Origin: an uncultured Woeseiaceae bacterium
GTDB lineage: Bacteria > Pseudomonadota > Gammaproteobacteria > Steroidobacterales > Woeseiaceae
Reading direction: 5' to 3'
DNA length: 50,966 nucleotides
Assembly (NCBI GenBank): GCA_902517795.1
Contig: CABYDR010000006.1
Span: 1 to 50,966, forward strand
This document shows positions 11,546-50,828 of the stretch, in pieces. The first letter of the stretch is position 1. The number at the start of each line of letters is the position of its first letter. The notes under the pieces are model-generated. The model was not told where the DNA came from. It did no database searches and saw only the letters and a list, made by a program, of their open reading frames with translations. The translations under genes and the position numbers were made by a program.

Positions 11546-11573
11546 TTGACGGACTATGTCAAACCAGTATACT
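11546..11573 (+). promoter_or_regulatory. Sigma-70 promoter of the hpaF-hpaE-ligAB operon
   Basis: -35 TTGACG (11546-11551) and -10 TATACT (11568-11573), 16-base spacing, reading toward hpaF. The -35 box is also the left arm of an inverted repeat, TTGAC-N7-GTCAA (11546-11562). The -10 box overlaps that of the divergent aldolase promoter. Confidence 0.65.
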
Positions 11574-11594: not shown

Positions 11595-11606
11595 CAAGAG
11601 AAAAAT

Positions 11607-11999: not shown

Positions 12000-12007
12000 G
12001 AAATACA

Positions 12008-13528
12008 ATGTCAACCGACTTAGAAAAGAATATCAAAGATATAAAAAAACTCTTAAATAGCTATGAAAATGAAGCTCTGCCTCATTATATAAATGGGAGT
12101 AAGTTGTTGAGTAAATCAAATGAGTTTTTTGAAAATTTTTCTCCGATAGATAACGAGATAATAGGTTCGGTTGCCTCAGGTGGCTCGGAGGATATTAATG
12201 ATGCTTGTAATGCGGCTTCAGGGGCATTTGATGAATGGAAGAGCATCTCTGGCAAAGAGAGAAAAAAATTACTGCATAAAATAGCCGACGGAATAGAGGA
12301 TCGTGCCAGAGAAATTGCGCTTGTAGAGAGCTATGATTCAGGTCAAGCAATTCGTTTTATGAGTAAGGCAGCAATAAGAAGCGCAACAAATTTCCGTTTC
12401 TTTGCAGACATGGCCCCTAATGCCCGTGATGGAAAATCACTTCCAGCTGATGAACATTTAAACTATTCGATTAGGCAACCTATTGGACCTGTTGGTGTAA
12501 TTACTCCCTGGAATACTCCTTTTATGCTAACGACATGGAAGATAGCTCCTGCTCTAGCATCTGGATGCACAGTAGTTCATAAGCCAGCTGAATGGTCACC
12601 TCTTTCATCAATGATTTTGGCAGATATTACGAAAGAGGCAGGACTCCCAGATGGAGTCTTGAACGTAGTTCATGGTTTTGGTGAAACAGCGGGTAAATCA
12701 TTAACTGAAAATGAAAAAATCAAAGCAATTGCATTTGTAGGTGAGTCATCCACAGGTTCAAAGATTATGAAACAGGGTGCAGATTCATTGAAAAGAGTTC
12801 ATTTTGAACTCGGAGGAAAGAATCCTGTTATTGTTTTTGATGATGCTGATTTGGATAAAGCGTTAGATGCTACTGTCTTCATGATATTTAGTCTCAACGG
12901 CGAACGATGCACATCATCCAGTAGACTTCTAGTTCAAGAGTCAATCAAAGATGAATTCATAAACAAATTATGCGACAGGATAGCAAAACTAAAAGTTGGA
13001 CATCCCCTTGATCCGGATACTGAAATAGGCCCTTTGATTCATGAAAAACACAAACAGAAAGTACTCAATTATTTTGCTTTAGCTCAAAAAGAGGGAGCTA
13101 CGATCAAAGCAGGCGGTAAAGAAATGACATTAAACAGTAATGGAAATTATGTTGAGCCAACGTTATTCACTGATGTAAGTAATGACATGCGTGTTGCTCA
13201 AGAGGAGATATTCGGACCAGTTTTGAGTGCAATCACTTTCAAAAATGAAGCTGAGGCACTAGAAATTGCGAATGATACAGACTTTGGCTTAGCGGCTTAT
13301 GTTTGGACCAACGATGCGGGTAGAAGTTTGAGATTGTCACATCAGCTTGATGCTGGCATGATATGGATTAACTCAGAAAATAATCGACATCTGCCATCGC
13401 CTTTTGGCGGTATGAAGGCAAGCGGAATAGGAAGAGATGGTGGCGATTATAGTTTTGATTTTTATATGGAAACAAAAAATATTTGTTCGGCATTTGGCAG
13501 CCACAAAGTACCAAGGTTAGGTAAGTAA
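12008..13528 (+). CDS. hpaE: 5-carboxymethyl-2-hydroxymuconate semialdehyde dehydrogenase
   Basis: A 506-residue NAD-dependent aldehyde dehydrogenase with the oxyanion Asn169 (TPWNTPF), general base Glu267 (FELGGKNP) and nucleophile Cys301 (NGERCTSSS). ERCTSSSRLL after the Cys is typical of HpaE. It oxidises the ring-cleavage semialdehyde of homoprotocatechuate to the dicarboxylate used by HpaF. An AGGAA ribosome binding site precedes the ATG. Its stop and the next start overlap (TAATGA), joining it to the dioxygenase subunits. About 25 extra N-terminal residues, rich in Lys and Glu, precede the usual domain start. Confidence 0.9.
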   Translation: MSTDLEKNIKDIKKLLNSYENEALPHYINGSKLLSKSNEFFENFSPIDNEIIGSVASGGSEDINDACNAASGAFDEWKSISGKERKKLLHKIADGIEDRAREIALVESYDSGQAIRFMSKAAIRSATNFRFFADMAPNARDGKSLPADEHLNYSIRQPIGPVGVITPWNTPFMLTTWKIAPALASGCTVVHKPAEWSPLSSMILADITKEAGLPDGVLNVVHGFGETAGKSLTENEKIKAIAFVGESSTGSKIMKQGADSLKRVHFELGGKNPVIVFDDADLDKALDATVFMIFSLNGERCTSSSRLLVQESIKDEFINKLCDRIAKLKVGHPLDPDTEIGPLIHEKHKQKVLNYFALAQKEGATIKAGGKEMTLNSNGNYVEPTLFTDVSNDMRVAQEEIFGPVLSAITFKNEAEALEIANDTDFGLAAYVWTNDAGRSLRLSHQLDAGMIWINSENNRHLPSPFGGMKASGIGRDGGDYSFDFYMETKNICSAFGSHKVPRLGK

Positions 13529-13863
13529 TGAGTTTATATAGTTTACAAAAATTTTTATATGAATTGAATCGAGATGACTCTATTCAGAGGCAATACAAGG
13601 AAGATATCGAATCTTTACTGTCAAATTACACGCTCACCGATGAGGAAAGCAATGCACTTAGGACAGGAGATATAGGCCTTCTTTATGTTTTAGGGGTCAA
13701 TGGTCAGATTCTAATGCATTTTGCAGCATTTCTTGGCGTAGAATGGTTTGATTATTTAGATAAAATGAGAGATGGAATTAAAGATCATGGTGCCGTCAGA
13801 GATGGAGTTTATGCTATGACGGGAGGAGGAAAAAGCTTCACGACTGAGGAGGAGGACCGATGA
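13528..13863 (+). CDS. LigA-type small subunit of a class III extradiol dioxygenase
   Basis: A 111-residue all-helical protein matching the LigA subunit of protocatechuate 4,5-dioxygenase. LQKFLYELNRD near the N-terminus, ALRTGDIGLLYVLGVNG and ILMHFAAFLG are family hallmarks; this subunit caps the active site of the LigB partner. The start overlaps the hpaE stop and the stop overlaps the LigB start by four bases, so both subunits are made together. Homoprotocatechuate pathways normally use single-subunit HpaD; a LigAB pair here is unusual. The preferred substrate (homoprotocatechuate, protocatechuate or gallate) cannot be decided from sequence alone. Confidence 0.85.
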   Translation: MSLYSLQKFLYELNRDDSIQRQYKEDIESLLSNYTLTDEESNALRTGDIGLLYVLGVNGQILMHFAAFLGVEWFDYLDKMRDGIKDHGAVRDGVYAMTGGGKSFTTEEEDR

Positions 13864-14684
13864 GTTTAGTCTATACAGGTGTTCTGAGTCATGCTCCTGG
13901 AATTACTGGGAGAGCTCATATGGTTGAGAATACTGATAAGCGTGACGAGTTTTACGCTGCACTTGAAGCGCAGAGGCAAGATATAATGAATGCCGGTGCT
14001 GAAGCAATAATAGTGATTGCTGCGGAACATTTTGCCAATTTTTTCATGAATAACATGCCAGCTTATTGCATTGGTGTAAGTGAAAATTATGAAGGTCCTA
14101 TAGAGGATCCAGAGTGGCTAGCTATTGAAAAAACAGAAATTCCAGGCGCTCCTGATCTTGGTAAAAGAATCACAAGACACGTAATGGATTCTGTAGATGT
14201 GGCTTATTCTGAGGAGTGGAAATTTGATCATGGAATCATGGTGCCTCTCAATTTTCTAACGCCTAATTATGACTTGCCTGTCATTCCAGTAAATATTAAT
14301 TGTCAAGGACCACCTCTAACACCATTGCATAGGTCATGGGCTTTTGGTGAAGCGTTGAGAAGAGCATGTGACGCGATGCCAGAGAAAATTGCATTAGTTG
14401 GAACGGGAGGCATATCTCATTGGCCTGCAACACCTGATTCAGGAAAGATTAACGAAGCCTGGGATAGAGAATTCCTCGGCCGACTGATGCGCAACGATAA
14501 AGAATCTCTTTTGAGTTATAACGATGAAGATACTTATCGAGACGCAGGGCAAGGTGGTTTTGAAATCAGAACTTTTATAACTGCTGCTGCTGCTGCCGGA
14601 GGAGAAGGGGATTTAAAATTTTATACAGCAGAATTACCGATCTTTGCGGTCGGTTGCACCGTGGCAAGTTTCTCATTAAGCTAA
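13860..14684 (+). CDS. LigB-type catalytic subunit of a class III extradiol dioxygenase
   Basis: A 274-residue LigB-fold enzyme with a non-haem Fe(II) site: His11 (VLSHAPG), His57 (AAEHFANFF) and Glu235 (GGFEIRTF) as ligands, and His187 (GGISHWPA) as the acid-base residue. It cleaves a catechol ring next to the diol. Between hpaE and an aromatic carrier, it most likely opens homoprotocatechuate to 5-carboxymethyl-2-hydroxymuconate semialdehyde. A strong GAGGAGG ribosome binding site lies within the end of the ligA gene. The second extradiol enzyme in the window (18945-19904) belongs to a different, MhpB, branch. Confidence 0.87.
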   Translation: MSLVYTGVLSHAPGITGRAHMVENTDKRDEFYAALEAQRQDIMNAGAEAIIVIAAEHFANFFMNNMPAYCIGVSENYEGPIEDPEWLAIEKTEIPGAPDLGKRITRHVMDSVDVAYSEEWKFDHGIMVPLNFLTPNYDLPVIPVNINCQGPPLTPLHRSWAFGEALRRACDAMPEKIALVGTGGISHWPATPDSGKINEAWDREFLGRLMRNDKESLLSYNDEDTYRDAGQGGFEIRTFITAAAAAGGEGDLKFYTAELPIFAVGCTVASFSLS

Positions 14685-14714
14685 TTCTAACTGTCAAAAA
14701 AAACGAGGTTAAGT

Positions 14715-15314
14715 ATGTCCTTTTTAGAACCTCTATCAGATGAGGGGATTCCCGCTGATATTTTAGAAAGATTTGCTCATTATAAAAACACGAGGGGTTT
14801 CACTCCTAATAGCATTAAAACAATGGTCAGAAGACCAAATATTGTTCGTGCATTTATGCAATTAAATCAAGCGGTTTTATACGAAGGCACTGTCAGTGAA
14901 GAATTAAAAATGCTTATTAGCTTGATATCCAGTCAAGTAGCCGGATGCAGATACTGCCAAGCTCATATGGCAAATCTTTCAAAAATATATGAGGCCTCTG
15001 AAGAAAAGATAAGTCAGGTTTGGAATTATGCGAACAGTGACCTGTTCGATGAATCAGAAAAAGCTGCACTGGATATTGCCTATCATGGTGCAATGTCGCC
15101 AAGTCAAGCAAAAGAAGACCACTTCGAAGCCTTAAGCCAGCACTTTAATGAATCTGAAATAGTTGAAATCGTTGCAACAATATCACTATTTGGGTTTTTA
15201 AACCGATGGAATGACACCATGGCTACCGAATTAGAAGAGTTACCCGAAAAAGTTGCTCAATCAACGATAAAAGATACCTTTGGCTGGGATAGAGGTAAAC
15301 ATGAGCAAGGCTAA
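14715..15314 (+). CDS. AhpD-like / carboxymuconolactone decarboxylase family protein
   Basis: A 199-residue helical protein with the AhpD core: SSQVAGCRYCQAHMANL gives Cys78, Cys81 and His84, a CxxC redox or proton-relay pair. Such proteins act as alkylhydroperoxidases, or in some cases as lactone decarboxylases. Placed 30 bases after the dioxygenase in the same orientation, with GAGG before its ATG, it may protect the oxygen-dependent pathway from peroxides or act on an intermediate; neither can be shown here. The C-terminal half (FGFLNRWNDTMATELEELP) is shared by many two-repeat peroxidase-related proteins. Confidence 0.8.
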   Translation: MSFLEPLSDEGIPADILERFAHYKNTRGFTPNSIKTMVRRPNIVRAFMQLNQAVLYEGTVSEELKMLISLISSQVAGCRYCQAHMANLSKIYEASEEKISQVWNYANSDLFDESEKAALDIAYHGAMSPSQAKEDHFEALSQHFNESEIVEIVATISLFGFLNRWNDTMATELEELPEKVAQSTIKDTFGWDRGKHEQG

Positions 15315-27611: not shown

Positions 27612-29447
27612 TTGAAAAATAAAATCACGAGAAGAGATTTTTTAAATGGAACACAAATCGCTATTGGTGCTTCTATGGTTTCACCTATGCAAAATATCCT
27701 AGGTGCAAGTAATAGTTCATTTTCTTTACCAGAGAATTATTACCCGCCAGCGATGACTGGTCTAAGAGGAAGTCATGATGGTTCCTGGGAAGTCATGCAT
27801 ACAAGGGTGACAGGGAAATCTTGGCCAAAGACTGGGCATGAGGAAAAATACGATTTAGTTGTTGTAGGTGCTGGTATCAGTGGATTGTCTGCAGCATATC
27901 ATTTTAAAAAAGAACATCCCAATTCAAAAATTCTTATATTGGATAATCACGATGATTTTGGCGGACATGCCAAGAGGAATGAATTTAATGTAAATGGAGA
28001 TAATCGAATAGGTTATGGAGGAACTGAAGCCATCGATACACCTTCCTCCTACAGTAAAGAGGCAAAGGAATTAATAAAAGAAATTGGCATTGACGTTAGT
28101 AAATTTTACGAAGCATATGATCAGTCCTTATATTCCTCATTGGGGTTATCGAAGGGTATTCTCTTTGATAATCAATCTTTTTCTGAAGAGAAATTAGTGG
28201 TTGGCTACAATAAGATCCCATGGAGAGAGTATGCCGATAAAACTCCAATGACAGATAAAGCTAAGGATGATCTGATCAGAGTTTGGACGGAAAAAAAAGA
28301 TTATCTACCGGTGTTATCTGATGAAGAAAAATATCAATTATTAAAAAATATTAGTTATTACGATTTTTTAAAAGACTATGTAAAAGTTGATCAGCAAATT
28401 CTCGAAATATTCAGACGTTGGGGCATGAGTTTCTGGTGTGTTGGTATAGACGAAGTCCCATGCACTCTGATTCAAAATTATGACGGTGGAATGCCTGGCT
28501 TAGATCATACATTAAATAGAAGCGGGTATAGAGGGGACGAACCTTATATTTTTCATTTTCCAGATGGCAATGCCTCTGTTGCAAGACTGTTAGTGAGAAA
28601 ACTAATACCTGAAGCTGTTCCTGGCTCAACCATGGAAGATGTGGTTCTTGCTAAGGTTGATTACTCTTTGTTGGATAATGATAATTTAAACAAAATACGA
28701 CTCAACTCCACTGTAGTTGATGTAGCTCATAACCGCGACTCAACTGCAGTTGATGTGACTTACGTGAGGCACAATAATGCGCATACAATAAGAGCAGATA
28801 AGTGTATTCTCGCCTGCTATAACAGTGCTGTTCCGTACATTTGCCCAGAATTACCAAGCAAACAAAAAGAAGGGTTGAAATATAACGTCAAGATCCCGCT
28901 GACATATACCAAGGTAATGATACCTAGTTGGAAATACTTTGCTGAATTGGGGTTGGATTTTGTTTATTACACAAATGGGTTTTTTAAACAGGTTGAATTG
29001 GCATATCCAGTATCTATAGGCGATTATCAATTTAACAAATCACCGAATGACTCCATGATACTCCACATGTGTCATTCTCATCATTCCCCAGATATTCAGG
29101 GGCCAGATCAATGGAAAGAAGGTAGGAGAGTGCTTTTATCGACGCCTTTTTCTGTTTTTGAAGATCATATTAAAAATCACTTAGATCAAGCACTCAAACA
29201 AGCAGGATTCGATGCAGATAGAGACATATCAGCAATTACAGTTAATCGATGGCCTCATGGTTATTCGTATTCAAACGATCTTATTTGGGAGCCAGAATGG
29301 CCGAACGATGAGAGTAAACCATGGATAATAGGAAGCAGGCAATATGGAAGGATCTCGATTGCAAACTCTGATGCAGCCGCTTCAGCGGATACCAATGCTG
29401 CTATTACCGAAGGAATCCGGGCAGCAAATGAAATGCTATCTCTTTAG
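27612..29447 (+). CDS. Tat-exported FAD-dependent oxidoreductase (amine-oxidase-like)
   Basis: A 611-residue protein starting with a twin-arginine signal (TRRDFLNG) and a Rossmann FAD motif, VVVGAGISGLSAAYHF, near residue 85. GGHAKRNEF follows, and a C-terminal RISIANSDAAASADTN segment closes the FAD site. This family is seen in many proteobacteria as NAD(P)-binding or amine-oxidase-like flavoproteins without a known substrate. The folded holoenzyme would be exported to the periplasm. The start is TTG at 27612 with GAGG eight bases upstream; the nearby ATG at 27598 is out of frame. It lies 47 bases after the TPP enzyme gene and 11 before the deacylase gene. Confidence 0.82.
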   Translation: MKNKITRRDFLNGTQIAIGASMVSPMQNILGASNSSFSLPENYYPPAMTGLRGSHDGSWEVMHTRVTGKSWPKTGHEEKYDLVVVGAGISGLSAAYHFKKEHPNSKILILDNHDDFGGHAKRNEFNVNGDNRIGYGGTEAIDTPSSYSKEAKELIKEIGIDVSKFYEAYDQSLYSSLGLSKGILFDNQSFSEEKLVVGYNKIPWREYADKTPMTDKAKDDLIRVWTEKKDYLPVLSDEEKYQLLKNISYYDFLKDYVKVDQQILEIFRRWGMSFWCVGIDEVPCTLIQNYDGGMPGLDHTLNRSGYRGDEPYIFHFPDGNASVARLLVRKLIPEAVPGSTMEDVVLAKVDYSLLDNDNLNKIRLNSTVVDVAHNRDSTAVDVTYVRHNNAHTIRADKCILACYNSAVPYICPELPSKQKEGLKYNVKIPLTYTKVMIPSWKYFAELGLDFVYYTNGFFKQVELAYPVSIGDYQFNKSPNDSMILHMCHSHHSPDIQGPDQWKEGRRVLLSTPFSVFEDHIKNHLDQALKQAGFDADRDISAITVNRWPHGYSYSNDLIWEPEWPNDESKPWIIGSRQYGRISIANSDAAASADTNAAITEGIRAANEMLSL

Positions 29448-39735: not shown

Positions 39736-41193
39736 ATGCCCCTTCAAATAACACGATCAAATAACATGTTTTCTCAATGTTTTTGTTTTTTGTGCGCCGC
39801 GGTGTTTCTTTTATTTAACAACGCAAAATCTCAGAATATCAAATCCGAATCAATCCTCATTAAAGGTGGTTGGTATATTGATCTAACGCAAATGAAAAAA
39901 GAGAAAAATCGAGGAATTCTCATTCAAGATGGATTAATTGTATCTTTGAATCATGAAGATCAAAAATCCTTAAATAATTTAAGACAGATTAATTTGATAG
40001 ACTCGCAAACGATTTTACCAGGCATGATTGATATGCATGCCCATTATAATTTCGATTTGGTTGATCAGGGCCGGGTCGATGAGGTGAATTTTAACGGTAT
40101 GATTTTTCTAGCTAACGGCGTTACATCCACATGGTCAGCAGGTGAATATAATCCGGAGAGAGTAATAAAACATAGAGATTCAATTAATAAAGGAGACAAG
40201 CTTGGTCCGAGAATATTCAATTCAGGTCCCTATTTTGGGGGTTTTAGATGCGAATACAATGTTAAGGCTGCAGAGGATGACTGCGTAGCATGGCCAAATG
40301 ATATTTCTGAACAAGAAATCAGAAATGAGGTGAATAAATGGGCGCAGAAAGGTGTGATCAGCATCAAGATTAAACAGGCAACCCCTGGTGAGGCAAAAAT
40401 ATTAATAGAAGAGGCACATAAGAACGGCATGACAACTGCAGCACATCTTGCGAATTATTACGGTGAGTATGATGTAGATCTTAGAGATGCCATTTTGATG
40501 GGATTAGACCGCGTTGAACATCAGATTACACTTGGGAATGGCGGCGAAAAGAGCAAAGAAATGGATCAAATGATTGACCTGATGATAAAAAGGAAAATTT
40601 ATTATGATGCCAATCTTCAGATGTATGGAGGGATAAATTTAAGAGCACAAATTCCAGATCTGGTTTGGACTGATGAATCAAAATATTTTACTCCATACGC
40701 TCAATCCCTGTTAAAAGAGAGAGGCGATCCTCCTCCAGAATCTGAAGAAGCAGAATTTAATCAGCGAGTTGTAGAATTAATTACTTTCTTTGAAGAAGGA
40801 GGGCAAGATCTGATGATTGTGGGTACTGACGAGCCAGTGTATACCACCTTATTACCAGGATTTGCTTATCACAGAGAGCTATATGCAATGCAGTATTTTG
40901 GAATTCCCGCCATTAATATTATAAAAGCTGCAACAATCAATGCAGCAAAGTCACTGGGCATTGAAGATATATTAGGTTCAATCGATGTTGGAAAAGAGGC
41001 AGATCTGGTAATCATAAATGGAGATCCAATATCTGATATAAGAAACGCAAGAAATATTGAATTCGTAATTAAAGAGGGTGTTATCTATGATCCAGTTTTA
41101 TTATTGAATTCGGCAGAAGGAATGATTGGCCCAAAGAATTCTGAAGAACATAGTGCCTGGCAACTCTCTATTGAACCATTAAGAAAATACTAA
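39736..41193 (+). CDS. Exported metal-dependent amidohydrolase
   Basis: A 485-residue amidohydrolase-superfamily protein with a signal peptide (hydrophobic residues about 12-28). DMHAHYNF gives metal ligands His101 and His103; ISIKIKQA holds the likely carboxylated or bridging Lys, and HLANYYG and VEHQITLG the later His ligands. IVGTDEP gives the catalytic Asp. It resembles imidazolonepropionase/prolidase-like members (AMDH 1 group). GAGG (39723-39726) decides the start at 39736 rather than the ATG at 39766. It opens an operon whose five products all have export signals, so it acts in the periplasm. Substrate unknown. Confidence 0.83.
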   Translation: MPLQITRSNNMFSQCFCFLCAAVFLLFNNAKSQNIKSESILIKGGWYIDLTQMKKEKNRGILIQDGLIVSLNHEDQKSLNNLRQINLIDSQTILPGMIDMHAHYNFDLVDQGRVDEVNFNGMIFLANGVTSTWSAGEYNPERVIKHRDSINKGDKLGPRIFNSGPYFGGFRCEYNVKAAEDDCVAWPNDISEQEIRNEVNKWAQKGVISIKIKQATPGEAKILIEEAHKNGMTTAAHLANYYGEYDVDLRDAILMGLDRVEHQITLGNGGEKSKEMDQMIDLMIKRKIYYDANLQMYGGINLRAQIPDLVWTDESKYFTPYAQSLLKERGDPPPESEEAEFNQRVVELITFFEEGGQDLMIVGTDEPVYTTLLPGFAYHRELYAMQYFGIPAINIIKAATINAAKSLGIEDILGSIDVGKEADLVIINGDPISDIRNARNIEFVIKEGVIYDPVLLLNSAEGMIGPKNSEEHSAWQLSIEPLRKY

Positions 41194-41200
41194 TGTTCAA

Positions 41201-43399
41201 ATGAAAGTGTTAAGAATTAAATTTAAGCTTTTGATGTGCTCATTAGTATTATTTTTAGTTCCAGATCCATTGATTCAGGATTTAAAAGCTGACGGAAAAG
41301 GAATCTTTGGTTCCGAGTGCGCTCGCTGTCACTCCAACGAGAATATTAAAGAATTCATTCAAAAAAAATGGATTGGACGATCTATGATGGATTTTTTCTT
41401 GGAGAATAAGAACACTATGCCAGCAGGATCACCTGGCTCACTTGCAGATCAAGAATATCTTCACCTGTTGAAATATATGTTTGATATTGCTGATGTAGAG
41501 GTTTCCTCCTTAACTATCGATAACATCACTTCTATGAAGATTGAATATAGAGAAAATAGAAATTCAGCTCCAGATATTGAATGGAAGAACTTTGGTTCAG
41601 GATTAAATGCTCAAAGATATGTGCCATTAAGTGAGATTAATAAAGACAATGTAGGTGACCTAGATATAGCTTGGAGATGGAAGACAGATAACTTTGGCCC
41701 CTCTCCAGAAATCAGAAATGTATCGATGCCAATCATGAGAGATGGAAAAATTTTTATCGGTGTGGGATCTACTAGAAATATTGTTTCAATAGATGCTGAA
41801 TCTGGTCAAACACTGTGGTTGTGGAGAGCAAATGAGGGAGATAGATTTAATCAAGCAGCCCGAAAAGATTCAGGAAAAGGTATTTCTTATTATGAAGATG
41901 AGGATGGAAAAAAATTTGTCATAGTCGTTACCCCGGGTTATTTTCTCGTGAGTCTGGACGCTGAAACGGGGCTACCTAATCCAAAATTTGGCGAAAATGG
42001 TCGAGTGGATTTAACTAAGGGTCTAAGAAGAGCGGTAGATCGCAATTTAGATGTGGGTTTAACTTCACCAGCATTGGTTGTTGAAGATGTAATCGTAGTC
42101 GGCTCTGCTCATGATGTGAGCTTCCGCCCCCCCTCTAAAGCCAATGTTAAAGGGGACGTTCGTGGATTTGATGCCAGTACTGGAAAATTATTGTGGACCT
42201 TTCATACGATTCCAGAACCTGATGAGGCTGGTTATGAAACATGGTTAAATGATTCTGCTCTTTACACAGGAAATGCAGGTGTTTGGGCTCCTATGTCAGC
42301 TGATACCGAAAATGGGCTTGTGTATTTACCTGTTGAATCAGCCACGGGAGACCAATATGGTGGAGATCGTCATGGAAACAATCTCTATGCAAACAGTCTT
42401 ATTGCCTTGGATTATATGACAGGAGAAATGAGATGGTATTTCCAATTAATTCATCATGATATTTGGGATTGGGATAATCCAACAGCACCTATACTGGCTA
42501 ATCTTCCTGACGGAAAAAAGATTGTTGCTCAAGTTACAAAACAAGGTTTTGTGTATGTGTTTGATCGAATAAATGGGAACCCTATTTGGCCTATAAATGA
42601 AACCCCTGTTCCTCAAACAGATGTTGAGGGCGAGTGGACTTCACTTACCCAACCAATTCCAGAGTTACCATTACCTTTTGAAAGACAGGGCGTTACAAGG
42701 AACGATTTAATTGATTACACCCCTGAGATAAGAAGAGCGGTTGATGATTTATTGACAAAATATCGGATTGGACCTCTTTTCACGCCACCGTCCATTGTGG
42801 GTGCAGAAGACGGTACTGATGGCACTCTTAGTTTGCCACATTTATTAGGTGGCGCGAATTGGGAGGGTAGTGCATATGACCCAAATAGCTCACTTTTATT
42901 TGTCCCTTCTCAAACCAGAGTGGGTTTAATGCAATTGGTTCATGAACCTGAATCTTCAGACATAAGATATATCTCTGGGAACGATCCAGAACCTAAGATT
43001 TTTGATCTACCCATTGCGAAACCACCATGGGGAAGGATAACAGCTATAGATCTGGTAACTGGGAAACATCAATGGTCCATTGCAAACGGAGATACCCCTA
43101 AACATATTAAGGATAACCCGGCTCTTGTTGGAATTGATCTTCCAAGAACAGGTAAACCAATCAGGTCAGGTATTCTAGTTACAGATACACTGCTTTTTGC
43201 TGGAGAGGGGTTTGGTGGTGAACCGGTATTCAGAGCTCATAATAAACTTACAGGTGAAATTATAGCTGAGATTTCGTTACCTGCAACACAGACAAGTCCA
43301 CCCAGTTCTTATCGTCTAAATGGAAAACAATATATTGTCATGACCGTTTCTGATGGGAAAAATCCTGCAGAATTAATTGCGTTGTCGTTAACTTATTAA
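41201..43399 (+). CDS. PQQ-dependent dehydrogenase with N-terminal cytochrome c domain (mGDH-like)
   Basis: A 732-residue exported quinoprotein. After a signal-like helix comes a c-type haem site, CARCH (Cys40, Cys43, His44), and then an eight-bladed PQQ propeller with W-motifs such as TGKLLWTF and MTGEMRWYFQ. EWTSLTQPIPELPLPFERQG and GPLFTPPS match the glucose-dehydrogenase type of PQQ enzymes. It would oxidise an alcohol or sugar in the periplasm and pass electrons through its own haem. No PQQ synthesis genes are in the window. It lies seven bases after the amidohydrolase gene. Confidence 0.87.
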   Translation: MKVLRIKFKLLMCSLVLFLVPDPLIQDLKADGKGIFGSECARCHSNENIKEFIQKKWIGRSMMDFFLENKNTMPAGSPGSLADQEYLHLLKYMFDIADVEVSSLTIDNITSMKIEYRENRNSAPDIEWKNFGSGLNAQRYVPLSEINKDNVGDLDIAWRWKTDNFGPSPEIRNVSMPIMRDGKIFIGVGSTRNIVSIDAESGQTLWLWRANEGDRFNQAARKDSGKGISYYEDEDGKKFVIVVTPGYFLVSLDAETGLPNPKFGENGRVDLTKGLRRAVDRNLDVGLTSPALVVEDVIVVGSAHDVSFRPPSKANVKGDVRGFDASTGKLLWTFHTIPEPDEAGYETWLNDSALYTGNAGVWAPMSADTENGLVYLPVESATGDQYGGDRHGNNLYANSLIALDYMTGEMRWYFQLIHHDIWDWDNPTAPILANLPDGKKIVAQVTKQGFVYVFDRINGNPIWPINETPVPQTDVEGEWTSLTQPIPELPLPFERQGVTRNDLIDYTPEIRRAVDDLLTKYRIGPLFTPPSIVGAEDGTDGTLSLPHLLGGANWEGSAYDPNSSLLFVPSQTRVGLMQLVHEPESSDIRYISGNDPEPKIFDLPIAKPPWGRITAIDLVTGKHQWSIANGDTPKHIKDNPALVGIDLPRTGKPIRSGILVTDTLLFAGEGFGGEPVFRAHNKLTGEIIAEISLPATQTSPPSSYRLNGKQYIVMTVSDGKNPAELIALSLTY

Positions 43400-43451
43400 C
43401 TTCAATAATTTTTATTTAAGATGTTAATATAAATTTATGGAGATCAATTAA

Positions 43452-44789
43452 ATGCGAATAATTATATTAGTCATATCCGTTCTATTTTTCCAAGCAATCA
43501 GTGCCGATGCAGTCATTTTGCCAATGCGGGAGAGAGCACAAGTTATTGATGAGATAATTGATGAAAGAATTGAGACAGTTCTTCCAGGCCTGATGGAACG
43601 AACAGGAATTGATATGTGGATAATCATTTCTAGAGAATATAATGAAGACCCAGTATTGAAAACATTCTTGCCATCAACTTGGCAGACAGCAAGAAGAAGA
43701 ACCATATTGTTAATTTATAATCCAGGTAGCGGCAAACCACTTGAGACCCTTGCAGTCGCTAGGTACGGTGTAGGTAAGACATTCATTAAGGCTTGGGACA
43801 AGGAGCTACATGGCGATCAATGGAAACGTCTAGCTGAATTAATTGAAGAAAGAAATCCAAATAAAATTGGAATTAATTATTCAGATACATTTGCATTAGC
43901 TGATGGGATAACTCACACAGAACATGACTTATTCCTAGAATCACTGAACCCTGCCCACAGAGATAAGGTAATTTCAGCAGAAAAATTAGCTGTAGGATGG
44001 TTAGAGACGAGATCAAAGACCGAAATGATAATTTATCAACAGATTTGCCGTATCGCCCATGAAATTCTTGCGGCAGGGTTGACTGATGAGGTAATCCAGC
44101 CTGGAATTTCAACCACCAATGATGTTGCATGGTGGTATCGTGATCGAATAAGAGAGTTGAAATTAACTGCTTGGTTTCATCCTTCAGTTTCAATACAGAG
44201 AGAGGCAAGTCCTGCATTGGATGCAAAATCTTCAATATTGGCCAGACATGACGACAATATTATTATGCCAGGTGATTTACTACATGTAGATTTTGGAATT
44301 ACATATCTCCGTTTGAACACAGATACGCAACAGCATGCCTATGTTCTAAAGACTGGAGAAAATAAAATTCCCGACGACTTAAAGATCGCAATGCAAAATG
44401 GCAATCGTCTCCAAGATATACTGACCGGAGAAATTGCTGTTGGTAGAACAGGGAACGAAGTTTTGGCAAGCGCCCTAGGAAAAGCCAAAAATGAAGGTAT
44501 TACACCATCTATATACACTCATCCAATTGGGTATCATGGACATGGTGCTGGATCTACCATTGGTATGTGGGATCAACAAGGGGGTGTTCCAGGTGGAGGA
44601 GACTATCCAATTTACCCCAACACTGCATATTCCATTGAGCTGTATGCAGAAACGAACGTTCCAAGTTGGGGAAAACCAGTAAGAATTAAACTTGAGGAAG
44701 ATGCGATGTTTGACGGTAATAGTGTTTATTATATTGATGGACGTCAGAAGGAAATATTTCTCATTCCCAGACAAGCCCCACAACAATAA
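43452..44789 (+). CDS. Exported M24 family peptidase (Xaa-Pro aminopeptidase-like)
   Basis: A 445-residue protein with an N-terminal signal peptide (about 1-20) and the pita-bread fold of M24. The metal ligands are recognisable: LLHVDFG and RLNTDTQ (two Asp), GYHGHGAG (His), YSIELYAE (Glu) and KLEEDAM (Glu). Related enzymes include Xaa-Pro aminopeptidase, prolidase and creatinase. Location in the periplasm and in an operon with a dehydrogenase and an aminotransferase suggests hydrolysis of an amide or creatine-like bond in a shared substrate; this is inference. A GGAG ribosome binding site precedes the ATG. Confidence 0.87.
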   Translation: MRIIILVISVLFFQAISADAVILPMRERAQVIDEIIDERIETVLPGLMERTGIDMWIIISREYNEDPVLKTFLPSTWQTARRRTILLIYNPGSGKPLETLAVARYGVGKTFIKAWDKELHGDQWKRLAELIEERNPNKIGINYSDTFALADGITHTEHDLFLESLNPAHRDKVISAEKLAVGWLETRSKTEMIIYQQICRIAHEILAAGLTDEVIQPGISTTNDVAWWYRDRIRELKLTAWFHPSVSIQREASPALDAKSSILARHDDNIIMPGDLLHVDFGITYLRLNTDTQQHAYVLKTGENKIPDDLKIAMQNGNRLQDILTGEIAVGRTGNEVLASALGKAKNEGITPSIYTHPIGYHGHGAGSTIGMWDQQGGVPGGGDYPIYPNTAYSIELYAETNVPSWGKPVRIKLEEDAMFDGNSVYYIDGRQKEIFLIPRQAPQQ

Positions 44790-44802
44790 ACAAGGAATTA
44801 AG

Positions 44803-46056
44803 ATGAAGCCATTAGATGGAAATAATAATTCAATATCAAAACTAACAAGAAGAGGTTTCCTAGGTGCAAGTGCAGGTATTGGCTCCCTAGCACTAGCCAA
44901 TAATAAATTATTCGCAGAAACAATCTCATCAGTTTACCCAGCAAGACAAATAGACGAGATTCATGGGTGGGGAAGCCGTCCCGGTATGGTTAGTATTGGT
45001 TTCAATGAAAATCCATATGGACCCTCACCACGTGCTATTAGAGCTGTCACAGATTCCATCATGGATGTCAATCGATACGACTTTGTTGCGTATACAAATC
45101 TTGAGAATGCAATTGGTGATCATCTTGGTTTAGAAAAAGACCCAAATCCAGCTTTTGGGGCAAACCCATTGTTTGGAAAAAGCCTCTATCCTGTGTATGT
45201 TGAGGGAGGTTCCAGTTTTATATTAAATCAAGTAACAATGCTTTATGGTGTTAAGAATGGTGCAGGTGAAATTATAGAAATTGATCCTGGTTATGGAGGA
45301 GTGACCAGAGCTGCCATGTCGCTCCGATCCCAGTTTGGCGCTGAAATAAAAATAAAAAGAATTCCAACTACTTCAAAATTTGTACATGATCTAAAAGCAA
45401 TGGAGGAAGCAATCACAGACAATACTACTCTTGTGGTGATTACCAATCCAAACAATCCAACTGGAACACTTCTCTCATATCAAGAGTTGGAGAGATTTAT
45501 CAATAATATTCCAAGACATGTTACTTTGCTTATTGATGAGGCATACATCGATTTTGTGAGAGAAGACAATTATGAAACAGGGATTTCTTTGGCGCTGAAA
45601 TATAATAATGTGATTGTCACCAGAACATTTTCAAAAATGTATGGATTAGCGGCTATGAGAATTGGTTACGCAGTCGCTAGTAAATCAATAATTTCTGATT
45701 TACGCGCATCAGGAAACAGCTGGGGCCTTCCCAGCATCAATTGCTATGCTGCAGCTGCTGCCTTAAAAGATTTATCCTTCACTAGACAGGTTAAAAGACT
45801 TACGGGTGAAACAAAGGACTATTTTTACAGAGAACTTGATATTCTTGGCTTGAATTACATACCCAGTCATTCCAGCTTTGTGTTGGTAAATGTTGAGGAG
45901 GACGCACAAGCATTTCAGAAGAAACTGATGGAAAAAAATGTCAGAGTAAGAGCCTATGACAATGATGCGATAAAAAATTACATTCGCGTCACACTAGGTA
46001 CGCTGGATGAGATGCAAGTCACAGTTGATGTGATAAAAGAAGAGCTAAAAGCATAA
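44803..46056 (+). CDS. Tat-exported class I/II aminotransferase, HisC-like
   Basis: A 417-residue fold-type I PLP enzyme with a histidinol-phosphate-aminotransferase look: GFNENPYGPSP at the N-terminus, VVITNPNNPTG, DEAYIDF and the PLP Lys278 in RTFSKMYGLAAMRIGYA. It begins with a twin-arginine signal (LTRRGFLGASAG), so a folded, PLP-loaded enzyme would be exported, which is unusual for an aminotransferase. The ATG at 44803 after AAGGAATT is chosen; upstream in-frame ATGs would lie inside the M24 gene. With no his genes beside it, histidine synthesis is unlikely. Confidence 0.85.
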   Translation: MKPLDGNNNSISKLTRRGFLGASAGIGSLALANNKLFAETISSVYPARQIDEIHGWGSRPGMVSIGFNENPYGPSPRAIRAVTDSIMDVNRYDFVAYTNLENAIGDHLGLEKDPNPAFGANPLFGKSLYPVYVEGGSSFILNQVTMLYGVKNGAGEIIEIDPGYGGVTRAAMSLRSQFGAEIKIKRIPTTSKFVHDLKAMEEAITDNTTLVVITNPNNPTGTLLSYQELERFINNIPRHVTLLIDEAYIDFVREDNYETGISLALKYNNVIVTRTFSKMYGLAAMRIGYAVASKSIISDLRASGNSWGLPSINCYAAAAALKDLSFTRQVKRLTGETKDYFYRELDILGLNYIPSHSSFVLVNVEEDAQAFQKKLMEKNVRVRAYDNDAIKNYIRVTLGTLDEMQVTVDVIKEELKA

Positions 46057-46109
46057 ACATAATAAAATTATTATGATATAAAATATCAATGACAACATAG
46101 GAGAAAATA

Positions 46110-47150
46110 ATGTTATTGAATCTAGTTAAAAAAGATTTATCAGGCGTAATATTGCTAATCTTGTTATCTACGTCCTTGTTCGCTCAAGAACATCCTTGGA
46201 GGGCAAATAACGAATGGGCCAAAATGCCTGCTGAAAGGACATGGGGTTCAACGAGCGCTGTCTTTCCAGGAAAAGATGGTACGATGTGGGTAGGAGAGCG
46301 ATGCGGACAAAATAGTTGTGTCGGATCAGATGATGATCCCATTCTTCAGTTTGATCGCGATGGCAATGTCATAAAAAGTTTTGGTGCAGGAATGATTGAC
46401 TGGCCACACGGTATTTTTGTAGATAAAGAAAATAACATTTGGATAACAGATGCTGCTTGTCCAGGATGCAGTAACGCACCTAGAAATCAGGGGAAATTAG
46501 GGCATCAGATTATTAAGTTTAGCTCTGAAGGCGAAGTCTTGATGACGCTTGGGAAACCAGGAGTTAAGGGAGATGGTAATTACGAATTTAATATGCCATC
46601 TGATGTTTTGGTTGCACCAAATGGCGATATTTTTGTTGCGGACGGTCATGGCAGTTCTGGAAATAATCGAATAGTGAAATACGATAAAAACGGAGAATTC
46701 ATTAAAACATGGGGTGTAACTGGAGCCGAAAGAGGAGAGTTTAGAGATCCTCATGCACTTGCAATGGATTCAGAGGGAAAACTGTATGTAGGTGACAGAG
46801 GAAATAGCCGTATTCAGATATTTGATCAAGACGGAAGCTGGATAGCAACATGGACACAATTTGGAAGGCCAAGTGGTTTATTTATCGATAAAAATGATGT
46901 TTTGTATTCTGCAGATTCAGAATCACATGTTCCATGGTCTGGAAATTGGGGATGGAAAAGAGGTATACGAATCGGAAGCACAAAAGATGCTTGGGTTGTA
47001 TTCTTCATCCCAGATCCCGGTCAACCCGATCTGAATGGAAGCACAACAGCAGCTGAGGGTGTTGCAGTTGACGACCAAGGAAATATATATGGAGCGGAGG
47101 TCGGTCCAGAACAATTAGTACGATATGAGCATATTGGGTGGAGACCTTAA
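46110..47150 (+). CDS. Exported NHL-repeat beta-propeller protein
   Basis: A 346-residue protein with a signal peptide cleaved near LFAQE. At least four NHL-type blades are readable (for example WPHGIFVDKENNIWITDAA, MPSDVLVAPNGDIFVADGH, DPHALAMDSEGKLYVGDRG and RPSGLFIDKNDVLYSADSE). The group resembles peptidyl-alpha-hydroxyglycine lyase propellers but catalytic identity is uncertain. A pair of Cys at CGQNSC and another at CPGC may form disulfides. It is the last gene of the exported-enzyme operon; GGAG stands before its ATG and a strong terminator follows within ten bases. Confidence 0.82.
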   Translation: MLLNLVKKDLSGVILLILLSTSLFAQEHPWRANNEWAKMPAERTWGSTSAVFPGKDGTMWVGERCGQNSCVGSDDDPILQFDRDGNVIKSFGAGMIDWPHGIFVDKENNIWITDAACPGCSNAPRNQGKLGHQIIKFSSEGEVLMTLGKPGVKGDGNYEFNMPSDVLVAPNGDIFVADGHGSSGNNRIVKYDKNGEFIKTWGVTGAERGEFRDPHALAMDSEGKLYVGDRGNSRIQIFDQDGSWIATWTQFGRPSGLFIDKNDVLYSADSESHVPWSGNWGWKRGIRIGSTKDAWVVFFIPDPGQPDLNGSTTAAEGVAVDDQGNIYGAEVGPEQLVRYEHIGWRP

Positions 47151-47155
47151 AATAA

Positions 47156-47181
47156 AAAAACCGGCCATTTGGCCGGTTTTT
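47156..47181. terminator. Bidirectional rho-independent terminator
   Basis: A perfect GC-rich stem CCGGCC/GGCCGG (47161-47166 and 47171-47176) has a four-base loop ATTT, and A and T runs on the two sides extend the pairing. With T after the stem on either strand, it can end both the NHL gene operon and the convergent TPR lipoprotein gene. Confidence 0.92.
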
Positions 47182-47201: not shown

Positions 47202-48923
47202 TCAAAACCGAGATGAGGTTATATATAGATTGGATCGTGCCCAGCTGTCATTAAAATCCTGATTGATAGCCGGATCGTCAATTCCTTGGCCAGCCAACGC
47301 TTGCTTTAAACCATATAAAGACCACCCATTATGGGGGTGTTTTTCAAGTTCTCCTCGGTATATTGACTCAGCTTTTTCAAATTCACCTGAATCAATCAAG
47401 GCAGCTCCAAGCCAATGGCGAGCAGAAAATGGCAATGGACCAGGTTCACTAAATCCAAGAGTGTTTTCAGTATTAACACCAGCCTCAAAAGACTGAATTG
47501 CACCTTCTAGATCACCCTCTAATATTTTTATCTCGCCTTGGAGGATATAAGCAACGACAGTGACCAAAGTTGATTTGTAGTCACCTCTGAAGTACTCAGA
47601 ACCAAGATCACCCTCAGCAGCCTTAAATAAATCACTTTCAACCTCTCTAGCCGTTTTGCTGTCACCCATTTTTAAACTTGCGTAACCTTTGGCAAATTTA
47701 TACAGAGCAACAGAGAAAACATCTTCCGGTATATTCTTATTATCAAGAACGTCTTGGAATCGACCAAATCTTATTTGAGTTAGTGTCTCATAAGGCGCCA
47801 TATCTGTAATTTCTCTGTAATCCTTCCCTGCCTGGATAGCGACTGCACCCTGACCGTCGTAAGCTGCTCCATATAAAAGCATATGAAGGTTGTGTGCTGC
47901 CCCATAAGAGAAACCCTTGTTTGATTTAGCCATGATATCTGATTGAGATGCTTTGATACTCGTTGTGACATTTTTACCCCACATTCCTGTTCTATTATAA
48001 GTATGAGCAGGCATATGTTGAATATGACTTGCAATTGGAACAGCATCACTCAATTTATCAGCACAGGGTACAGCCCTTTCAGGCATAATTGTTGACTCAG
48101 TTGCATGAATATATAAATGACATGCTCCTGGATGCGAAATATTCTCATCAAGCACTCCAGTTAGCACACTATGAAGCCTTATCAATTCTGGTGTTTCAGC
48201 TCGATAACCACGTCTCTCTTCAAGCATAAACAGTGCTTGACCATAAATACTAGCTATTTCATGATTTTTAGGATATTTCTTATAAAGTCCCGCAACTTCG
48301 TCAGCATAAGCTTGATAGGTTGGCTGTCTTTTTTGTTTATCATTTGCTATTTCTGTAGTCCAATTCTCCGGATATCTGACTAGTGAAGCCATAATTAAAT
48401 CATATTCCATCGGTGAGGTATTTCCATCAGCGATTTCGGCGGCTTTCATAATTGCAGTCCTGGCTCTCATTCCTTTTTCGGTTGTCATATGTCCATTTAA
48501 AAATGATCCTAGAGCAAATGCTTCACCCCAATAACACATAGCACAATTTGGGTCTATTCTTCTTGCCTCGGCCATAGACCGTGCGGCTTCATTTACATTA
48601 TATGCCCATCTCAGTTGCATGCCTTGTTTGAAATAGTCCTGCGCTCCTTGCTCTGAAGTTGTAACTTTCCATTCCCATTCACCAAGCGCCTCAGGAATAT
48701 AATCAATTGGTTTATCGTAACTACTCTCCATCATCATTGATGAGTGAACCCCAACAGGAGCAGATAAGGGTGCGGACTTTATTGATGTTTCCTTGCTTTT
48801 TCCAGGAACAAGCTGATTAACACCCGACATGACCGAGTCCTTAAAATTAGTTATTTTTTGTTGAGTATTAGTACATCCTGATATAAGGGAGAATACTGAA
48901 ATAATTATAATTATATTTTTCAT
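47202..48923 (-). CDS. TPR-repeat lipoprotein, about 573 residues
   Basis: From the ATG at 48923 the protein has a lipoprotein signal with lipobox ISGC (Cys17). The body is helical repeats of the tetratricopeptide kind, for example YFKQGMQLRWAYNVNEAAR, ARRIDPNCAMCYWGEA and KAESIYRGELEKHPHNGWS. HPGACHLYIHATE and HIQHMPAHTYNRTG in the centre carry several His and Cys that look like a conserved site in this family. It is probably an envelope scaffold or a peptide-binding protein; I do not recognise a precise function. An upstream in-frame ATG at 48974 is less likely because the signal would be buried. Confidence 0.8.
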   Translation of the reverse strand: MKNIIIIISVFSLISGCTNTQQKITNFKDSVMSGVNQLVPGKSKETSIKSAPLSAPVGVHSSMMMESSYDKPIDYIPEALGEWEWKVTTSEQGAQDYFKQGMQLRWAYNVNEAARSMAEARRIDPNCAMCYWGEAFALGSFLNGHMTTEKGMRARTAIMKAAEIADGNTSPMEYDLIMASLVRYPENWTTEIANDKQKRQPTYQAYADEVAGLYKKYPKNHEIASIYGQALFMLEERRGYRAETPELIRLHSVLTGVLDENISHPGACHLYIHATESTIMPERAVPCADKLSDAVPIASHIQHMPAHTYNRTGMWGKNVTTSIKASQSDIMAKSNKGFSYGAAHNLHMLLYGAAYDGQGAVAIQAGKDYREITDMAPYETLTQIRFGRFQDVLDNKNIPEDVFSVALYKFAKGYASLKMGDSKTAREVESDLFKAAEGDLGSEYFRGDYKSTLVTVVAYILQGEIKILEGDLEGAIQSFEAGVNTENTLGFSEPGPLPFSARHWLGAALIDSGEFEKAESIYRGELEKHPHNGWSLYGLKQALAGQGIDDPAINQDFNDSWARSNLYITSSRF

Positions 48924-48964
48924 GTAAATGCCTATGTTTGTGTGAAAGTGATTTTCAATTAATT

Positions 48965-48995
48965 CAAGATGCATTAAAGACTAATATGCATCTTG
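48965..48995. repeat. Inverted repeat CAAGATGCAT-N11-ATGCATCTTG
   Basis: Perfect 10-base arms (48965-48974 and 48986-48995) with an 11-base loop, in the 159-base divergent region between the TPR lipoprotein gene and the racemase gene. No clear T-run follows, so a regulator site or leader hairpin is more likely than a terminator. The rest of the gap shows no gene. Confidence 0.5.
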
Positions 48996-49082: not shown

Positions 49083-49826
49083 ATGAAAAAAAATAACGGA
49101 AAAAAGAAGTTGATAGCTGGTGTTCTAGGTGGAATGGGCCCTTTGGCGACGGTTGATTTTATGTCAATGGTAATCGATCTTTGTCCGATAGTAACTGAAG
49201 ACGATCATGTAAGGCTTTTGGTCGATCAAAATCCCCATATTCCAAATCGTCAGATAGTGTCTAACATCAAATCAAAAAACATTGGATCAATGCTTGCTGA
49301 TGGAGCTTTGAAATTACAAAATGCCGGAGCAGATTTTATCGTTATGCCTTGCAATACAGCTCATATGTTCTCAGATGATATAAAGACTAGAATAAATATT
49401 CCTTTCATACACATAGTTGATGAAACCATTAATGAAATAACAGCGTATTTTCCCGACAAAAAATCCGTAGGTATCTTGGCAACATCAGCTTGTATCAATG
49501 CCAAGATTTATCAGGATGGCTTAACTGTTAACAACAAAAAATTTCATCTACCCAGCGAATCTTATCAAGATGAATGCATGAAAAGTATCTTTGACATAAA
49601 AGAAGGAACCGAAATCTCAAATCCTGCAGATTCAATGTATAAAGTTGCTAATCATTTAACTGAAAAAGGTGCTGAGATTTTAATTGCAGGGTGTACTGAA
49701 ATTCCGCTTGTATTAAAAAATGAGGATCTTAATGTTCCGCTTATATCCTCCACAGAGGTTTTAGCAATAAAAACCATAGAGTATGCTAACCATATAAAAA
49801 TAGAGAGAAACTATAAAAAGGAATAG
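49083..49826 (+). CDS. Aspartate/glutamate racemase family protein
   Basis: A 247-residue two-domain racemase with the paired catalytic Cys: Cys90 in VMPCNTAH and Cys204 in AGCTEIPL. GVLGGMGPLATVDFM at the N-terminus is typical of the Asp/Glu racemase (YgeA-like) group, which uses a two-base, cofactor-free mechanism. The substrate could be aspartate, glutamate or another amino acid. It is three bases from the next gene, a D-cysteine desulfhydrase-like enzyme, so a D-amino acid may be passed between them. This pairing is inference. Confidence 0.88.
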   Translation: MKKNNGKKKLIAGVLGGMGPLATVDFMSMVIDLCPIVTEDDHVRLLVDQNPHIPNRQIVSNIKSKNIGSMLADGALKLQNAGADFIVMPCNTAHMFSDDIKTRINIPFIHIVDETINEITAYFPDKKSVGILATSACINAKIYQDGLTVNNKKFHLPSESYQDECMKSIFDIKEGTEISNPADSMYKVANHLTEKGAEILIAGCTEIPLVLKNEDLNVPLISSTEVLAIKTIEYANHIKIERNYKKE

Positions 49827-49829
49827 ATT

Positions 49830-50828
49830 ATGTTGTTATCACGTTATCCTAGGGTTTCATTGGCTCATTTGCCAACACCTTTCGAATATCTTCCAAGATT
49901 AACAGAGTATCTAAATGGACCAAACATCTATGTAAAGAGGGATGATTGTACGGGTTTGGGTACGGGCGGGAACAAAACTAGAAAACTTGAGTTCTTGATT
50001 GCAGATGCTATTGAAAAGAAGGCTGATGTAGTAATTACCCAAGGAGCAGTGCAATCAAATCATGCCAGACAGACAGCAGCAGCTGCTGCAAAAGTTGGCA
50101 TGAGATGCGAGTTAGTTTTTGAAAAAAGAGTTACTGATGCATCATCTGCTTATATGGAGTCAGGCAACGTTTTCTTGGATAAACTTTTTGGTGCAAATAT
50201 TCAAGAGGTTGAGAGTGGTTCCGACATGAATAAAGAGATGGAGAATATCAGTTCAGCTCTAAGGGAGGAGGGGATGAATCCCTATATCATTCCTGGTGGA
50301 GGATCAAACTCAATTGGCGCCCTGGGTTACGTTGATTGTGTTTTTGAATTAATTGGTCAGGCGAACACCATGAATGTTGTTATAGATACAATCATTCATG
50401 CAACTGGAAGTGCAGGCACACAAGCAGGGATTGTAGTTGGTGCAAAAGCACTTAATAGTAAGATCCCAGTTTTGGGAATAGGGGTAAATGCTGATAAAGA
50501 GAAGCAGGAAGAGAAAGTTTACCAACTTGCCTGTGAATTATCTGATTTTATGGGTCTGCCAGGATTGGTAGAACGAAATGATATAGTTGCAAACTGCGAC
50601 TACGTCGGAGATGGCTATGGCATTCCAACTGATGAGATGAATGAGGCCATATTATTGCTAGCTAGACAAGAAGGACTATTGTTTGACCCAGTATATAGCG
50701 GTAAAGGTTTAGCTGGAATGATAGATCTCATTAATAAGGGGTATTTTAAAAAACAAGAAAATATAGCATTTATTCACACAGGTGGTTCGGCAGGACTTTT
50801 TGCTTATCATGATCTTCTCAAGACCTGA
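49830..50828 (+). CDS. dcyD: D-cysteine desulfhydrase / ACC deaminase family PLP enzyme
   Basis: A 332-residue fold-type II PLP enzyme. The PLP Lys49 is in TGGNKTRKLEF, and QSNHARQTAAAAAKVG provides the carboxylate-binding Ser and Asn. Family members break down D-cysteine to pyruvate, sulfide and ammonia; marine relatives include the L-cysteate sulfo-lyase CuyA, which cannot be separated here by eye. It is coupled to the racemase-family gene three bases upstream. The following 120 bases hold no gene. Confidence 0.85.
   Translation: MLLSRYPRVSLAHLPTPFEYLPRLTEYLNGPNIYVKRDDCTGLGTGGNKTRKLEFLIADAIEKKADVVITQGAVQSNHARQTAAAAAKVGMRCELVFEKRVTDASSAYMESGNVFLDKLFGANIQEVESGSDMNKEMENISSALREEGMNPYIIPGGGSNSIGALGYVDCVFELIGQANTMNVVIDTIIHATGSAGTQAGIVVGAKALNSKIPVLGIGVNADKEKQEEKVYQLACELSDFMGLPGLVERNDIVANCDYVGDGYGIPTDEMNEAILLLARQEGLLFDPVYSGKGLAGMIDLINKGYFKKQENIAFIHTGGSAGLFAYHDLLKT

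Follow-up and report, generated by a model that had tools for sequence, protein, structure and literature searches.

The closest described relative of the enzyme considered here is PtaA of Pseudomonas, a transaminase of pyoverdine tailoring which, in the part of the published work on which we draw, is exported by the twin-arginine translocation (Tat) system with its pyridoxal phosphate (PLP) bound and acts in the periplasm; the same part presents PvdN as another Tat-exported PLP enzyme (PMC6206403). Since PtaA is both Tat-exported and periplasmic, an exported PLP transaminase has a precedent, uncommon though it is. PtaA, in siderophore tailoring, is the one enzyme for which the searchable literature describes transamination in the periplasm, and among the papers listed by full-text searches of an open-licence library no Tat-exported HisC-like enzyme appeared outside pyoverdine work, a result that is not proof of none. 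Here we describe a stretch of 50,966 nucleotides (nt) from an uncultured Woeseiaceae bacterium (contig CABYDR010000006.1, assembly GCA_902517795.1; the whole stretch is hereafter called the window), in which a HisC-like aminotransferase with a Tat signal lies in a predicted operon of five proteins with export signals.

Our preferred reading, to which we assign a probability of about 60%, is that this operon is part of an island for extracytoplasmic peptide and amino-acid handling which is widespread in the family, and that a transaminase of the PtaA clade was recruited to it at the position that an exported M28 peptidase occupies in many relatives. In a lineage with small genomes, the locus would put a distinct branch of the exported PtaA clade into an island for peptides and amino acids, so that it can now be asked whether extracytoplasmic transamination has a general nutritional role and which amino acceptor it uses.

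Operon anatomy and export signals

A previous interpretation made from the letters of the window (the sequence-only reading) had placed five exported enzymes in one operon, read in one direction and closed by a terminator. Five same-strand open reading frames (ORFs) are indeed present at 39736-47150 (+), where they had originally been located, and the family searches agree with all five family names. PQQ stands for pyrroloquinoline quinone.

39736..41193, + strand: amidohydrolase, family Amidohydro_1, Sec-exported by the signal caller
41201..43399, + strand: cytochrome c-PQQ dehydrogenase, families PQQ and Cytochrome_CBB3, Sec-exported by the signal caller
43452..44789, + strand: M24 metallopeptidase, family Peptidase_M24, Sec-exported by the signal caller
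44803..46056, + strand: HisC-like PLP aminotransferase of the PtaA clade, family Aminotran_1_2, Tat-exported by motif
44842..44919, + strand: Tat signal LTRRGFLGASAGIGSLALANNKLFAE, residues 14-39 of the aminotransferase, motif LTRRGFLG
46110..47150, + strand: NHL propeller, family NHL, Sec-exported by the signal caller
47156..47181, + strand: intrinsic terminator, 11-bp stem and T-run, stem conserved in the genus

Export signals were called on 5/5 operon proteins (four Sec and one Tat), as had been claimed, and on 10 of the 39 remaining window ORFs of at least 120 amino acids. The caller is crude and custom-made, a few of the ten calls outside the operon look mistaken (they fall on membrane proteins or Rossmann folds), and exported neighbour genes cluster anyway, so that no probability is drawn from this comparison. 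The CxxCH motif of the PQQ dehydrogenase independently implies its export and, as regards the export of TRANSAMINASE, the Tat motif keeps R16, R17 and F19 in 11/11 orthologues. The amidohydrolase starts at ATG 39736, with GAGGT upstream. For the aminotransferase ATG 44803, 13 nt after M24, is a likelier start than TTG 44692; the longer ORF that begins at the latter overlaps the M24 gene.

From 5' to 3' the intergenic gaps in the window are 7, 52, 13 and 53 nt. In the eight genus relatives and in G009, a family genome carrying a close relative of the aminotransferase, the corresponding gaps, with start codons chosen by script, are 27-36 nt (amidohydrolase to PQQ, four loci), 52-74 nt (PQQ to M24, seven loci), 13-47 nt (M24 to HisC, nine loci) and 47-54 nt (HisC to NHL, nine loci). 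Terminator-like sites in the region number 12 against 9.3 expected, and the one at 47156-47181, a strong terminator, has the longest stem; a stem ACCGGNC...GNCCGGT with a T-run recurs 3' of NHL in 8/9 genus loci, window included, and at the ninth (L104, in G008) the NHL gene is broken and the terminator is not judgeable. This NHL gene (L104 8924-9950) is split into two ORFs. Ratios of nonsynonymous to synonymous change (dN/dS) of 0.02-0.11 were obtained for seven gene pairs (window vs G003 and window vs G005), with 0.072 and 0.068 for the aminotransferase; against G001 synonymous change is saturated for 3/4 genes tested, and the aminotransferase value of 0.105 comes at dS 1.97, near saturation. 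By sequence, the five-gene set is a real and well-conserved operon, for which a shared transcript is predicted. The promoter scan was uninformative (42 observed vs 48.3 expected), Rfam and transfer RNA scans of the window gave no matches, and a PHROGs search matched one family, of function unknown.

The aminotransferase and the PtaA clade

Homologues of the aminotransferase were sought in the contigs of one genome per species (84,980 species), and the best 80 relatives were used. By a simple rule, 14 of them carry a Tat signal, namely 12 from Bacteroidota, one from a Pseudomonas and one (L017) from an uncultured metagenome-assembled genome (MAG); L027 has a Tat signal by eye and L025 an RK variant. 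Excluded from the resulting tree of 57 rows were three paralogues in the window's genome (L004-L006), the fused ORF L045 and cytosolic relatives with lower scores (L062-L096). L016 and L027 were labelled as Tat by eye and L025, which failed the rule, was labelled 'cyt', and for this last label the run counts two label changes instead of one. In this tree the 27 Tat-type proteins (26 RR and one RK) form a single clade with support 98/97, and ordinary HisC proteins fall outside it. Within the clade, the window orthologues and L017 make one branch (99/98), while the Bacteroidota proteins and L053 make the other, which is weakly supported (84/58). L053 is PtaA by NCBIfam (591.9 bits, cut-off 500) and serves as positive control; its place inside the clade is unsure because of its long branch. 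The aminotransferase thus belongs to a PtaA-like clade with predicted export, apart from cytosolic HisC, and by cut-off it is a divergent relative of PtaA and not PtaA itself. The sequence-only reading had considered an exported aminotransferase rare because such an enzyme requires an amino acceptor beyond the cytoplasm, and had suggested a survey of Tat-HisC homologues and their neighbours. The homologues compared here give the one Tat-type clade of 27, and HisC is kept beside M24 and NHL in the genus; the enzyme is unusual, as had been said, but PtaA and PvdN are documented and it shares the clade of the former.

Residues N215, D245, Y248, K278 and R395 are found in 11/11 orthologues and R286 in 27/27; all six are invariant in the window clade and near-invariant across the Tat-type group. 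We take K278 to be the catalytic lysine that binds PLP, and the other residues to contact PLP or the substrate carboxylate. With this set the protein is, at the level of sequence, a fold-type I PLP aminotransferase (PF00155). The AlphaFold model has a mean pLDDT (per-residue model confidence) of 84.4, under 50 only across residues 1-57, and matches histidinol-phosphate aminotransferases, the best being 3ly1 (template-modelling score 0.91 by target). In the MAG relative L017 (5076-6311) an Arg stands at the position of the PLP lysine, and this protein is possibly inactive or reflects a sequence error.

Among named families, the best score is that to HisC itself (TIGR01141, 221.9 bits, below cut-off 276.55); the scores to NF006580/PRK09105 and to PtaA (NF051461) are 210.7 bits (below cut-off 444) and 166.4 bits (below the curated cut-off of 500). 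The first place of HisC favours the idea of an ordinary cytoplasmic HisC that carries a merely decorative Tat signal, as does the failure to find TatC in the window's own incomplete genome. We regard this idea as extremely improbable: the score is under the HisC cut-off, the protein lies outside the ordinary HisC clade, the twin arginine is kept in 11/11 orthologues and in the wider clade, and TatC is above cut-off in 7/9 genus genomes, the two in which it was not found being 66% (the window's own) and 52% complete.

Another feature of the Tat-type group concerns six Bacteroidota loci (L018-L023), in which homologous multi-spanning membrane proteins lie directly 3' of the Tat-HisC gene (6/6, that of L020 being cut by the contig end); no such protein was seen in the other 11 loci scanned. 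The protein of L018 has no Pfam family above cut-off, and an AEC-type permease, considered for the membrane protein beside the Flavobacteriaceae Tat-HisC, was rejected, Pfam giving only UbiA, below cut-off.

The locus in relatives and its proposed role

In the surveys that follow, absence means no relative at the stated E-value, and the large surveys score at most four candidates per genome. A close relative of the aminotransferase (E <= 1e-60) is present in 11/107 family genomes, that is in 9/9 of the genus and in G009 and G020; at strict thresholds, a survey of 396 genomes of the order added none to these, and among 398 drawn from the phylum only the window's own genome had it. The partner genes have a different spread in the 107 family genomes, with relatives of M24 in 41 and of NHL in 29 (both E <= 1e-60) and of the PQQ dehydrogenase in 21 (E <= 1e-150). 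Eight further stretches from the genus and 21 others were compared with the window. The order PQQ-M24-HisC-NHL, followed by a convergent tetratricopeptide repeat (TPR) gene, CuyB and CuyA, holds in 9/9 genus loci, window included, save for the lack of PQQ in G003. The trio M24-HisC-NHL occurs in 9/9 genus genomes, with similar gap sizes (NHL being broken in one), and in G009, which confirms the expectation that the genes are conserved together. The amidohydrolase is seen at six genus loci (once as a contig-edge fragment), absent at two and off the contig at one.

HisC is found in 0/18 M24 stretches from other genera, and an M28 peptidase lies directly 3' of M24 in 11 of these 18, followed in two by NHL. 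Two genomes stand apart. G009 has the order PQQ, a metallo-beta-lactamase-fold gene, M24, HisC and NHL, and G020 has M28 and then HisC at the contig end, an intermediate arrangement. The simplest reading of these gene orders would be that HisC was inserted after M28 and that M28 was later lost. In the tree the transaminases of G009 and G020 are nested within those of the genus, a placement for which transfer between lineages, or uneven rates, would be possible explanations. Furthermore, the island of the relatives encodes an S58 peptidase with an N-terminal signal, and also arginase-like and M20-type amidohydrolase proteins with signals (L193 15212-17815 and equivalents), likewise odd outside the cytoplasm; export signals of the M28, M20, arginase-like, S58 and amine oxidase proteins in relatives were judged by eye from N-termini.

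The families of the M24 protein and the amidohydrolase suggest a role in peptide use. The M24 protein scores 38.8 bits to PF00557, above the cut-off of 23; this family is kin to Xaa-Pro aminopeptidase and prolidase. Its residues D280, D291, H357/H362/H364, E396/E400 and E415/E416 are invariant in 28/28 sequences, and the choice of the histidines and glutamates that complete the five metal ligands is our assumption. The nearest named families of the amidohydrolase are Xaa-Pro and Arg dipeptidases (132.9 bits to the Caulobacter-type Xaa-Pro dipeptidase NF051886, under the 500 cut-off), and its residues HxH 101/103, K 211 or 213, H237, H262 and D365 presumably form the metal site. The PQQ dehydrogenase (558.3 bits to PF01011, with an N-terminal c-type cytochrome) keeps heme and catalytic motifs, namely CxxCH 40-44, HHDxWDxD 418-425 and K447, whose catalytic roles we assume from the family. 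The NHL propeller has a distant match to peptidyl-alpha-hydroxyglycine amidating lyase (PAL). Its H100 and H215 are invariant in 9/9 sequences and the candidate third zinc position reads Glu; we assume that these three correspond to the three-histidine zinc site of PAL, with one histidine apparently replaced by Glu. It may be a PAL-like lyase, though non-enzyme NHL domains match better; a profile search seeded with NHL relatives did not bring the alignment to peptidylglycine alpha-amidating monooxygenase (PAM) into view, and the structure model from the single sequence is poor (mean pLDDT 60.6).

PqqC is above cut-off in 0/107 family genomes (one weak match of 27.3 bits in G007) and in 38/249 genomes of the phylum sample, which is used as positive control because the search's own 14 control genomes gave none. 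Therefore the PQQ enzyme probably relies on PQQ from outside, and the family would be a PQQ auxotroph, judged by PqqC as sole marker.

In the mechanism that we propose, the M24 peptidase, with the amidohydrolase where present, would hydrolyse small Xaa-Pro-like peptides in the periplasm, as their families suggest. The aminotransferase would fold with PLP in the cytoplasm, be moved folded via Tat, and exchange amino groups by a reaction like that of PtaA, with released amino acids or some amino-bearing metabolite as donors and periplasmic 2-oxo acids as presumed acceptors; these 2-oxo acids would enter via porins or come from exported oxidases. The cytochrome c-PQQ enzyme would oxidise a separate alcohol or sugar with external PQQ and deliver electrons to respiration. 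The genes would share an exported substrate-scavenging role, and probably one transcript, and not a single obligatory linear route. Hints of oxo acids made by exported oxidases come from the window, where a Tat-type homologue of the spermidine dehydrogenase SpdH, another exported amine-oxidising enzyme, lies at 27612-29447 (457.8 bits), and from Larkinella and Spirosoma (L024 9812-12687, L030 9806-12664), where a Tat-type HisC-like gene precedes that of a flavin amine oxidase whose N-terminus looks Tat-type by eye. Such an oxidase stands beside the transaminase in two of the ten loci with neighbours listed, and neither received an NCBIfam name at E <= 1e-20. A broader proposal, rather doubtful in our judgement, is that the PtaA clade of Pseudomonadota and Bacteroidota serves a general extracytoplasmic amino-group exchange, in which peptides are cut and amino acids transaminated with oxo acids from exported amine oxidases or from the environment; if true, nitrogen and carbon would be sorted before uptake.

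The sequence-only reading had gone further and implied an entire periplasmic degradation pathway. One linear pathway through all five enzymes would fit the conserved order, the short gaps and the common terminator of the genus; the natural losses and the gene-by-gene differences in phylogenetic spread tell against it. In G003 homology to the window runs to base 39742, at the amidohydrolase start, and resumes at 43309, close to where the PQQ gene ends; the junction (L097 2499-2597) is an in-frame loss of ~3.57 kb of the amidohydrolase and PQQ genes that leaves a 32-codon remnant, with M24, HisC and NHL intact. This genome is a draft (86% complete), yet the junction is clean, and no PQQ relative was found elsewhere in it at E <= 1e-150. 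The amidohydrolase is absent at the G001 and G003 loci, a statement about the locus only. One or two members can therefore be lost while the remainder is retained under selection, which argues against an obligatory five-step pathway, and we consider such a pathway quite unlikely.

A different possibility is tailoring, in which a single peptide-like metabolite, secreted or incoming, would have its free amino group modified by the aminotransferase and be trimmed by the M24 and amidohydrolase enzymes. PtaA, the studied member of the clade, does so on pyoverdine according to the portion of the source used here (PMC6206403), and the peptidase encoded alongside, like the propeller that distantly matches PAL, would suit the idea. 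Against it, no nonribosomal peptide synthetase or siderophore genes are seen by eye among the window ORFs, and relatives carry the peptidase island without the aminotransferase; tailoring is in our opinion unlikely.

Beyond the terminator lie genes that raise a further alternative.

47202..48974, - strand: TPR lipoprotein, convergent to the operon, syntenic in 9/9 genus loci
49083..50828, + strand: CuyB (cysteate racemase) and CuyA (D-cysteate sulfo-lyase), both above NCBIfam cut-offs, syntenic in 9/9 genus loci

The PQQ enzyme and the aminotransferase could act on C3-sulfonates (such as sulfopyruvate/cysteate or cysteinolate) and feed CuyB-CuyA, whose curated scores and synteny favour a link; moreover, for Ruegeria pomeroyi the part of the source on which we rely (PMC11382572) reports the cysteate-making aminotransferase of this route as unidentified. 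This seems very unlikely to us, since an export signal is called on neither CuyB nor CuyA, a convergent gene and a terminator separate both from the operon, and they occur within 9/18 non-genus M24 stretches, all without HisC. Elsewhere in the window, at 7801-15314, genes resemble by eye a homoprotocatechuate/4-hydroxyphenylacetate route (HpaB-like hydroxylase, ring-cleavage dioxygenase, semialdehyde dehydrogenase, isomerase).

Several observations weigh against the peptide and amino-acid island that we prefer. Seven of the 18 non-genus M24 stretches have no M28 beside M24, and four of these (L195, L197, L198 and L200, the last with a contig ending just 3' of M24) show little of the island, which is therefore widespread but not universal. 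In G020 no relative of M24 was found at E <= 1e-60, and its HisC therefore lies outside the M24-HisC-NHL trio. The M24 assignment itself has a modest Pfam score and no sequence match in the PDB. The substrates of the five enzymes and the periplasmic amino acceptor of the aminotransferase are candidates only, and the reaction of the latter enzyme may differ from that of PtaA, given the 166.4 bits against a cut-off of 500. Finally, the genomes are drafts (the window's own being 66% complete), and the losses therefore rest on few of them.

Comparison with known systems

The amidohydrolase has the Xaa-Pro/arginine dipeptidases (2qs8, Cc2672) among its best named matches, but its 132.9 bits stay far from the cut-off of 500. 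The PQQ dehydrogenase finds its best NCBIfam match in the glucose/quinate/shikimate type (TIGR03074), with which it shares the propeller with HHDxWDxD and K motifs, which we assume comparable to those of E. coli Gcd. It differs in its score (348.2 bits vs cut-off 832.65) and in having an N-terminal cytochrome c instead of the membrane domain of the reference family. With the PAL domain of PAM (3fvz) the fifth protein shares the NHL propeller, scoring 76.5 bits in phmmer and 109.3 bits in the profile search, but non-enzyme NHL proteins (Thin, TRIM71) and designed propellers outscore this domain in both searches.

The aminotransferase shares fold and catalytic residues with HisC (TIGR01141; PDB 3ly1, 1fg3), from which it is separated by a score below cut-off, a clade of its own and predicted export. 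With NF006580/PRK09105, to which PtaA at L053 scores 468.3 bits, its match starts within the signal, residue 13 aligning with profile position 4, whereas its 210.7 bits fall under 444. PtaA remains the nearest counterpart: both are HisC-like PLP transaminases of the same tree clade, Tat-exported in the one case and predicted to be so in the other. They differ in sequence, with 27% identity to PtaA at L053 and a score below the PtaA cut-off, in an insertion after about residue 110 of the window protein, partly common to L017, and in gene context, the window gene standing in an operon with M24, NHL and PQQ genes in a window where no pyoverdine genes are seen by eye.

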